Assembly: GCA_947629175.1 (NCBI GenBank)
Contig: CANRCT010000002.1
Location: 1-64,000 of the forward strand
Reading direction: 5' to 3'
Length of the DNA stretch: 64,000 nt
From: an uncultured Muribaculaceae bacterium
GTDB lineage: Bacteria > Bacteroidota > Bacteroidia > Bacteroidales > Muribaculaceae
Shown piece after piece: positions 25,563-28,450 of the stretch (position 1 is the stretch's first letter; every line of letters starts with the position of its first letter). The notes under the pieces were generated by a model. It worked only from the letters and a program-made list of their open reading frames with translations. It was not told where the DNA came from and ran no database searches. Position numbers and translations under genes: made by a program.

Positions 25563-26945
25563 TTAACCGATTGGCTCACCCCGTTTCAGCTTTTCGACTA
25601 TAGCATCTATTCGTGCCAGCTGGTCAGGTATCTTGATACCCTGAGGGCAATGAGGCTGGCATTCGCCGCATGCTATACAGCGCTCCGCCTGACGGAGACG
25701 GGGCACATTGCGGTCGTATCCTATAAGAAAGGCACGGCGCGCACGCTCGTATTCCGGATCCATATCCCCCGAAGGGACATCGCCGGCATTGACGCAGCGG
25801 TTGTAATGCTGGAATATCGAAGGAATGTCTATTCCATACGGGCATGGCATGCAGTATTTGCAGTCCGTACATCCGACAGTCGGATAAGACAGTATGATCC
25901 CGGCTGCATGGTCAAGAAAAGCGATCTCGTCGTCAGTAAGAGGCTTCAGCGGAGAATATGTGCGCAGATTGTCGCGCAAATGTTCCCGATATGTCATGCC
26001 GCTCAACACAGTCAGCACACCTTCAGGAGATCCGGCATAACGGAACGCCCATGAGGCGACACTGTCATCAGGCCTGCGCTGCTTCATCCGGGCCGTCAGA
26101 TTGTTGTTGACCGCAGCCAGCCGGCCGCCGAGCAGCGGCTCCATGATTACTACAGGTATACCACGTTTATGGAGTTCTCCGTAGAGATATTCCGCATCTG
26201 TATTCCGTTCGTTGACCTCCTTGGCATGGTTCCAGTCGATATAATTCATCTGGATCTGGACGAAATCCCAATGGTAGCGGTCATGGTTGGCAAGAAGATA
26301 ATCAAACACCTCCACATCGCCGTGATACGAAAAACCGAGATTGCGTATCCGTCCTGCCTTGCGTTCTTCCATTAAGAAATCGAGAATACCGTTGTCGAGA
26401 TACCGTGCATGAAGGTTCTCCATACCGCCCTGACCGATAGCGTGAAGAAGCATGTAGTCTATATGATCTGTCTGCAGCTCTTTGAGTGAATTGCGATACA
26501 TTTCAATCGACTTCTCGCGCGGCCATGTCGACGGATTGAAATTCGACAGCTTGGTGGCTATGAAATATGAATCCCTCGGATGCCGGCTCAGAGCTATGCC
26601 CATGGCATGTTCGCTGAGACCCTTGCAGTATGCAGGCGATGTATCGAAATAATTCACCCCTCCTTTCAGAGCCTCGTCGACCGAACGGTTGACCTCTTCC
26701 TGGTCAATTATTTCCTGACAGTCATCGGCTTTCGCGGTCGGCAGACGCATACATCCGTAGCCGAGTATCGACACCCGGTCGCCCGTGGATGGGTTTATAC
26801 GGTAAGTCATTTCTCCGCCTGCAGTGTCGTCATCGCCTGCCGCAACTATTTTGTCACGGCCGCCACATCCTGCAATCGAGAGTGTGACGCCCGCTCCCAT
26901 GAACTTCAGAAAGCCTCGACGTGTAATGCTGTTATCCTTATTCAT
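25563..26945 (-). CDS. Exported aldo/keto reductase with C-terminal 4Fe-4S domain
   Basis: This 460-residue protein starts with a twin-arginine motif (ITRRGFLKF, RR at 9-10) followed by a hydrophobic stretch and a possible lipobox ending at Cys27 (SIAGC). The AKR barrel follows (LGYGCMRLP, NYFDTSPAY, LLHAIGQGG). The C-terminal third has two ferredoxin-type cysteine sets (CTDCKYCMPCPYG and CIACGECQPHCPQG). It probably acts as an electron-accepting reductase on the outer face of the inner membrane or tethered to a membrane. It lies 5 nt after the polyferredoxin gene, which could feed it electrons. The substrate is unknown. Confidence 0.85.
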   Translation of the reverse strand: MNKDNSITRRGFLKFMGAGVTLSIAGCGGRDKIVAAGDDDTAGGEMTYRINPSTGDRVSILGYGCMRLPTAKADDCQEIIDQEEVNRSVDEALKGGVNYFDTSPAYCKGLSEHAMGIALSRHPRDSYFIATKLSNFNPSTWPREKSIEMYRNSLKELQTDHIDYMLLHAIGQGGMENLHARYLDNGILDFLMEERKAGRIRNLGFSYHGDVEVFDYLLANHDRYHWDFVQIQMNYIDWNHAKEVNERNTDAEYLYGELHKRGIPVVIMEPLLGGRLAAVNNNLTARMKQRRPDDSVASWAFRYAGSPEGVLTVLSGMTYREHLRDNLRTYSPLKPLTDDEIAFLDHAAGIILSYPTVGCTDCKYCMPCPYGIDIPSIFQHYNRCVNAGDVPSGDMDPEYERARRAFLIGYDRNVPRLRQAERCIACGECQPHCPQGIKIPDQLARIDAIVEKLKRGEPIG

Positions 26946-26950
26946 CTTTA

Positions 26951-28450
26951 TCAGTTTATTCGATGTATTTCATACCCCGACACTACTATCGCGCTTACAG
27001 GCGACACAGGGCACAGGTTCTCACATGCGCCGCACCCTATACACAGGGCTTCGTTGACCACCGGCATAGTCGGCCCACCCTCCGCAGAGTCAGGATCAAC
27101 CGCAGTCATGGTAATGGCCCCCGCTGGACACTTGCGCGAACACTTGCCACAGCTTGCGACTCCTGTGGCCGAGAGGCAACGGTCGAGATCGACATGTGCG
27201 CAACCGATATGTATCGACGATTTTTCAGCCTTGTCGATTTTTATGATGGCGCCGGTCGGGCAGACCTCGCTGCAACGGGTACATTCCGGGCGACAATAGC
27301 CATGTTCATAGCCCATTTCAGGCTGAAGCAACGTGGCGACATCCATTGACGGGCGCAAAACTCCGTTGGGACAGCTGGATATACACAGCTGGCAGGCGGT
27401 ACAATGCCGTTCGAGATTGGCCACGCTGACAGCTCCGGGAGGCACTATGCGGCCATTCCGGTCAGGCACTGTCTTCGGGATTATCGGGGCAAGACCGCCG
27501 TCATGGAGCTTCCCTTGCGCACTCGCAGCCGCGGCGCCGGCTATCGCAGCCCCTGCCACAAGAAAAGTGCGTCTCGCGCCATCCGTTCTGTCAGCCGCGG
27601 GCTCGTCAGACAATTTGCGTCGACGCACTGAATATGTGATCGCGCCCTGGCGGCAGTTGTCGATACAGTCCATGCATGCTACGCAGCGTGAATAGTCTAT
27701 CTCATGATGCGACGCGTCGATACACGAGGCCTTGCAGTTGCGCTCGCAGCTACGGCATCCGTTGCATTTCGATGTATCAATAACGGGCCGCAAAAGTGAT
27801 ATTTTCGAAAGATATCCGAGAACAGTGCCAACCGGACACACCATATTGCAATAACCTCTGCCTGTCAGCCAAGCCATACATCCCACTACCGCAAGAGTGG
27901 TCAGCGCTATGATGAGCAGAGGCCATGACACTGCGGGAGTATCAACGTGATAAAAAGCATATGATCCATAGCCCTCGGCTTCTGTGGCAAGAACGTTGTT
28001 AATGCCGTCGTAGACAGGAGATATCAAAGCGGATGCGATACGTCCGTAGCCGCTATATGGATCCAGCAGCCCGGCTACACTTGTCAGACCAACGCCTATA
28101 AGCACGGCGAAAAGCGTCAGAAAACAGATCCGCAGAGCCATCAGCGATTTTTTATACCTGAAACGATTGCGTCGGCCGTGGCGCGGTCCCATATGTCCGT
28201 GAATCCAGTTGATAAAATCCTGCATGATGCCGAGCGGGCATATTGCAGAACAATAAACACGTCCGAACACGACAGTCATCAACGCCAATACCGCAAGCGC
28301 CGCGACATTTAGCGACAGCAACGCCGGAACGAACTGTATTTCTGCCAGCCAGCCCCACCACCTCGATGCAGTACCGGTAAAATCAGTAAACAGAGCCGTA
28401 ACACAGATTAACACTGCCACAGCCACAATAATTCTTATTTTTCTGAGCAT
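26951..28450 (-). CDS. NapH-like membrane polyferredoxin fused to a NapG-like ferredoxin domain
   Basis: This 499-residue protein (ATG 28450; the track's 28477 start is a TTG inside the promoter) resembles NapH in its first 280 residues: four membrane helices, two CxxxCP motifs (C67/C71 and C201/C205), then two 4Fe-4S motifs (CNGCRSCERNC and CVACMDCIDNC). At 292-312 an internal twin-arginine-like motif (ARRTFLVAG) begins a fifth hydrophobic segment. Beyond it lies a NapG-like domain with four more cysteine clusters (CTACQLCISSC, CRPECTRCSEVC, CGKCSRKC, CIGCGACENLC). It likely carries electrons across the inner membrane. It is first in an operon with the Tat-type AKR. Confidence 0.85.
   Translation of the reverse strand: MLRKIRIIVAVAVLICVTALFTDFTGTASRWWGWLAEIQFVPALLSLNVAALAVLALMTVVFGRVYCSAICPLGIMQDFINWIHGHMGPRHGRRNRFRYKKSLMALRICFLTLFAVLIGVGLTSVAGLLDPYSGYGRIASALISPVYDGINNVLATEAEGYGSYAFYHVDTPAVSWPLLIIALTTLAVVGCMAWLTGRGYCNMVCPVGTVLGYLSKISLLRPVIDTSKCNGCRSCERNCKASCIDASHHEIDYSRCVACMDCIDNCRQGAITYSVRRRKLSDEPAADRTDGARRTFLVAGAAIAGAAAASAQGKLHDGGLAPIIPKTVPDRNGRIVPPGAVSVANLERHCTACQLCISSCPNGVLRPSMDVATLLQPEMGYEHGYCRPECTRCSEVCPTGAIIKIDKAEKSSIHIGCAHVDLDRCLSATGVASCGKCSRKCPAGAITMTAVDPDSAEGGPTMPVVNEALCIGCGACENLCPVSPVSAIVVSGYEIHRIN

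Follow-up and report, generated by a model that had tools for sequence, protein, structure and literature searches.

An internal Tat signal and a probable partner, a Tat-lipoprotein aldo/keto reductase, of a NapH-NapG fusion of Bacteroidales: a probable dual Sec/Tat membrane polyferredoxin

The window, a stretch of 64,000 nucleotides from the genome of an uncultured Muribaculaceae bacterium (GCA_947629175.1, contig CANRCT010000002.1, positions 1 to 64,000), encodes on its minus strand a polyferredoxin of 499 residues, hereafter PFD, whose reading frame runs from an ATG at 28450 to a stop codon at 26951-26953. Only 5 bp downstream, on the same strand, lies the gene of an aldo/keto reductase (AKR) (Table 1). 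Another 29 loci of the order encode full-length homologues of PFD, with 49-57% identity. The NCBIfam models of NapH and NapG cover residues 191-279 and 290-490, respectively, with scores of 61.3 and 57.8 bits that do not reach the equivalog cut-offs of 234 and 269. A motif scan locates CxxCxxCxxxC at residues 229 and 256 of the NapH half, and CxxCxxCxxxC at 350, CxxxCxxCxxxC at 386, C425 followed by CxxCxxxC (434-441), and CxxCxxCxxxC at 470 in the NapG half. An earlier note on this DNA had described a NapH-NapG fusion, joined through ARRTFLVAG and an Ala-rich stretch, with up to about six 4Fe-4S cysteine sets and two CxxxCP motifs; the reading frame, the NCBIfam matches and the motif scan bear out every one of these sequence details. 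The AlphaFold model of PFD has a pLDDT of 60, too weak for topology or contacts. The same genome also encodes a NapH-only paralogue of 310 residues without the NapG half (L138:6526-7458, G000:C1), which adjoins apparent thymidylate synthase and dihydrofolate reductase genes.

Table 1. Features of the PFD-AKR locus (positions in the window)
Feature	Position	Strand	Basis
NapH-NapG fusion polyferredoxin (PFD), 499 aa	26951..28450	-	ORF/translation, homologues, Pfam and NCBIfam domains
NapH-like half, residues 1-285; four hydrophobic helices and predicted cytoplasmic 4Fe-4S domain	27596..28450	-	NCBIfam NapH 61 bits, four hydrophobic 19-mers
CxxxCP motif 1 (C67-P72)	28235..28252	-	invariant, 29 sequences
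CxxxCP motif 2 (C201-P206)	27833..27850	-	invariant, 29 sequences
Two predicted cytoplasmic 4Fe-4S motifs (C229-C239, C256-C266)	27653..27766	-	domain search and alignment
Internal Tat signal, residues 290-311 (DGARRTFLVAGAAIAGAAAASA)	27518..27583	-	RR/KR conservation in 152 homologues, low hydrophobicity
Twin arginine R293-R294	27569..27574	-	R294 110/110, R293 104/110
Predicted signal peptidase I site A311/Q312 (Bacteroidetes Q-rule)	27515..27520	-	[AGS]Q in 96/110 close homologues; PMC5837995
NapG-like half, residues 312-499, predicted periplasmic	26954..27517	-	NCBIfam NapG 57.8 bits, four 4Fe-4S motifs
Four 4Fe-4S motifs, NapG-like half (C350-C480)	27011..27403	-	cysteines invariant
Tat-lipoprotein AKR, 460 aa, two C-terminal 4Fe-4S motifs	25563..26945	-	PF00248, N-terminal RRGFLK, lipobox Cys27
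Ferredoxin-type tail of AKR (C359-C368, C423-C433)	25647..25871	-	domain search and motif scan

The halves of PFD meet in the sequence DGARRTFLVAGAAIAGAAAASA/QGKLHDGGLA, where ARRTFLVAG corresponds to residues 292-300 and the twin arginine to residues 293-294, directly before the last hydrophobic segment of the protein. The second arginine is invariant across 110 close homologues, of which 80 come from named loci and 30 from loci retrieved by searching the order; the first is replaced only by lysine, in six sequences, and F296 is retained in 102, while the roughly 20 residues upstream of the pair are hypervariable. Forty-two more distant Bacteroidota copies all have the second arginine, preceded by R or K, so that this residue is invariant in 152/152 homologues. 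Maintenance of the RR/KR position within a drifting linker indicates selection rather than chance. Positive charge also follows the segment, with K or R at 310 and K at 314-315 in most close homologues, and with K314 in the window protein. In fusions from Bacteroidota that lie beyond the class to which the window belongs (L154-L168), the internal motif is mostly KR, not RR.

A five-helix polyferredoxin family was discovered bioinformatically by Tooke et al. (2017; PMC5449189), who termed its delta proteobacterium MLMS-1 member a NapH-NapG fusion. Reporters (MBP, AmiA) placed after the fifth helix of the MLMS-1 protein were exported by Tat and required the RR, according to the part of that article used here; the authors took the segment to be a fifth helix, and for their AmiA reporter they added a cleavage site. 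PFD displays the sequence features of this family, namely a NapH half, a NapG half, a conserved RR and a weakly hydrophobic segment followed by positive charge. NapH-NapG fusions and their Tat dependence were published in 2017, of which the earlier note was unaware; the core idea is therefore not new, and the Bacteroidota proteins represent a variant. The same part of the article names chloroflexi, nitrospirae and euryarchaeota for the polyferredoxin family, and Bacteroidetes instead for YkuE-like phosphoesterases. Like PFD, the MLMS-1 protein (Q1NSB0) is a single-chain NapH-NapG with RR before a weakly hydrophobic segment and with four exported 4Fe-4S sites; as far as that protein is described there, PFD differs in its shorter segment, its Q-rule-type cleavage site and its pairing with a Tat-lipoprotein AKR, and the Bacteroidota copies linked to DUF362 genes often have KR. 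In the actinobacterial Rieske protein Sco2149 (Keller 2012; Tooke 2017), an internal RR likewise marks the point at which Tat takes over from Sec for the final segment. Sco2149 is unrelated to PFD, however, and its loop before the RR is conserved, whereas that of PFD is hypervariable.

A natural split of the fusion bears on the nature of the internal segment. In one genome of the order (L142, 2114-3633, G096:C7), a NapH of 285 residues and a NapG of 221 residues are encoded as two genes with overlapping stop and start, after a DUF362 gene. The start of the separate NapG reads MMKNENRREFFKTALGALAAGAATQRVLASG; this free protein begins with MMKNENRREFFK, at the same point as the internal motif of the fusions, so that the internal segment corresponds to the Tat signal peptide at the N-terminus of a free protein. 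It is the only clean NapH/NapG split pair that was found; apparent split genes in another genome (G001) turned out to be contig ends.

The window's genome contains tatC, with tatA beside it. Among 295 genomes of the order, TatC is detected in 130/135 that bear the fusion and in 116/160 others (raw counts that ignore kinship). Furthermore, the flanking sequence of the PFD gene, of which up to 6 kb was analysed, includes tatC in 18/80 loci, a set that had not been selected for tatC. The reading of the internal motif as a Tat signal, first put forward in the earlier note, is thus backed by conservation, by gene association and by the reporter assays published for a related fusion (PMC5449189). 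The note had also seen no nitrate reductase nearby, and this absence extends to the whole genome, where NapA has no match while the E. coli control is positive. A nitrate reductase link is accordingly rejected, and PFD does not serve nitrate respiration of the Nap type.

The AKR, which the earlier note overlooked, matches PF00248 with 122 bits (cut-off 24). Both arginines of its Tat motif (R9, R10) and its catalytic tetrad (D101, Y106, K132, H168) are invariant in 24 homologues, and the lipobox Cys27 is conserved in at least 90%. Its best matches among solved structures, in sequence as well as in fold, are L-galactose dehydrogenases (8scc, 9w6y), with which it shares the D/Y/K/H tetrad; these chains are about 320-360 residues long and lack both the Tat lipoprotein signal and the pair of 4Fe-4S motifs that the window's AKR has. 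An AKR gene adjoins the PFD gene in 75 of the 80 named loci, downstream in 72 and upstream in three. It is present in 50/295 genomes of the order, all 50 of which also have the fusion and TatC. The neighbouring AKR is the probable redox partner of PFD, and no description of the pair was found in the openly licensed full-text literature. A point against such a partnership is that AKRs normally depend on NAD(P)H, a cofactor that the periplasm is not expected to contain. One possibility that we infer is export of the AKR in a folded state with its cofactor bound; if the enzyme acts outside the cytoplasm, its chemistry would itself be unusual. A shorter AKR (382 aa) with 4Fe-4S motifs and no Tat signal occupies the usual position of the Tat-lipoprotein AKR at one locus (L077:4304-5449), and both forms are present at two others (L041 and L043). 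A full-length PFD with AKR also occurs in a MAG labelled Opitutales (Verrucomicrobiota; L094), either by transfer or on a mis-binned contig.

Of 46 distinct Bacteroidota loci that contain a fusion without the AKR, 44 have a neighbouring DUF362 gene, and those DUF362 proteins whose starts were read have an N-terminal Tat motif. In a quick tree from a short search, the AKR-linked copies form one side of a branch among the DUF362-linked ones, with one AKR-less row nested inside, so that the partner was probably swapped once. A repeated origin of the AKR pairing was discarded on the same short-search tree, which gives one change between the two states. The window's genome has a DUF362 protein with a lipoprotein-like N-terminus at another locus (L137:5235-8158, G000:C1), whose gene adjoins a TonB-dependent receptor gene homologous to the receptor of the PFD-AKR clusters of other genomes. 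These clusters recurrently include DUF1893 (17/80 loci), a TonB-dependent receptor (12/80) and an ECF S-component-like protein (18/80); one of them (L101:4606-7440) has the order PFD-AKR-DUF1893-TonB receptor-ECF S-component-like protein, followed in several other genomes by tatC. The recurrence of these genes, together with the receptor homologue next to the DUF362 gene, would fit a role of the PFD unit in importing a cofactor or a metal complex, with the cargo of the TonB receptor and ECF-like protein being reduced by the partner (AKR or DUF362). We consider such a role unlikely, as the DUF1893, receptor and ECF-like genes are not adjacent in the window, a homologue of the ECF-like protein was not found in its genome and the ECF match is under the Pfam cut-off. 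It would specify the substrate and is compatible with the quinol dehydrogenase explanation developed below.

Taken together, these data seem to support most favorably a dual Sec/Tat membrane polyferredoxin that acts like a one-gene NapGH quinol dehydrogenase with the AKR as its outer partner, to which we assign a probability of roughly 0.7. E. coli and Wolinella use NapGH as a quinol dehydrogenase, according to work cited in PMC5449189. PFD has in common with the NapGH of periplasmic nitrate reductase its domain make-up, the CxxxCP and cluster motifs and the inferred electron route; it differs as one chain rather than two separate proteins, scores far under the NapG and NapH equivalog cut-offs and belongs to a genome without napA. 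In this model, Sec would insert the NapH half co-translationally and leave its 4Fe-4S clusters on the cytoplasmic side, and the four clusters of the NapG half would be filled in the cytoplasm before the folded domain is exported by TatAC through the internal RR signal. By analogy with NapGH, the menaquinone pool would give electrons to the NapH half or take them from it, and the NapG half, once exported, would connect this exchange in either direction with a partner beyond the membrane, here the Tat-exported AKR. The RR motif could instead be vestigial and the entire C-terminal half cytoplasmic, with the polyferredoxin serving cytoplasmic partners. The weak hydrophobicity of the segment would agree with such an arrangement, as would an AlphaFold model that gives no reliable topology and the five fusion-bearing genomes in which TatC was not detected; four of these five, however, are less than 90% complete. 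Given also the invariance of the second arginine in all 152 homologues, the clustering of tatC with the PFD gene and a co-conserved AKR that is itself a Tat lipoprotein, we regard a cytoplasmic NapG half as very improbable. A dual Sec/Tat PFD would bring many gut Bacteroidales into a little-studied protein class and provide that class with a specific candidate for a partner enzyme. It also points to a quinone-linked redox route, so far undescribed, on the outward side of the inner membrane in abundant gut bacteria, here in a genome without NapA.

The fate of the internal segment after export separates two forms of this model. The uncharged run after the RR is 15 residues long in 76/110 close homologues, which is short for a membrane-spanning helix, and the best 19-residue window of the segment has a mean Kyte-Doolittle value of 0.87, compared with 2.3-2.8 in helices 1-4. 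A hydrophobicity sum on the Hessa 2005 scale was computed without position weights and is meaningful only as a contrast with helices 1-4. In addition, Ala or Ser followed by Gln is found 11-28 residues past the RR in 96/110 close homologues, a count inflated by their shared ancestry, compared with [AGS]Q in only 3.8% of random 18-residue windows from the same proteins. Most signal peptidase I substrates of Bacteroidetes expose an N-terminal Gln (Q-rule; PMC5837995). The site of the window protein, ASA/Q, is a canonical AxA/Q; nearly half of the Ala/Gln sites in the close group have the less usual Leu at -3, which counts against cleavage. The divergent DUF362-linked copies have Ala, Ser or Gly before Gln in 26/42.

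A short, weakly hydrophobic segment with a conserved Ala/Gln site looks cleavable rather than like a fifth helix, and the halves may separate. This sequence evidence is read most simply as an internal signal peptide that can be cleaved and through which one gene yields two subunits, at about even odds. The cut by signal peptidase I after export would fall at A311/Q312 and may give a membrane-bound NapH-like and a periplasmic NapG-like subunit. The fuller proposal is more tentative, somewhat short of an even chance: the Bacteroidota fusion would be a processed polyprotein, whose internal Tat signal exports the folded second half before signal peptidase I cuts at the Q-rule site (or signal peptidase II in rare lipobox versions), leaving two stoichiometric subunits of a quinone-linked dehydrogenase that feeds, or is fed by, the Tat-exported AKR. 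Alternatively, the segment of the same dual Sec/Tat protein would stay uncut as a fifth transmembrane helix and keep the NapG half tethered, the arrangement that the MLMS-1 protein is assumed to have. This is the published model of the homologous fusion family, in which weak hydrophobicity of helix 5 is expected (PMC5449189), and retention of the fusion in nearly all genomes suggests that tethering may matter. Against it stand the 15-residue run and low Kyte-Doolittle value, the recurrence of the cleavage site in the divergent copies and a lipobox-like LNSC in another, and we place a permanent tether somewhat short of even. Of the earlier proposal that the second half is translocated while attached to the membrane domain, attachment is thus plausible for the translocation step itself, whereas the halves may well separate afterwards.

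New here are the AKR association, the co-clustering with tatC and the cleavable-looking internal signal. What deserves testing is the processing and the partnership with the AKR, and whether a cut at an internal Tat signal splits one chain into two is now directly testable. In the copy with the lipobox-like sequence (L171:1470-3090, G454:C119), the internal signal ends in LNSC, and its NapG half might become a lipoprotein.
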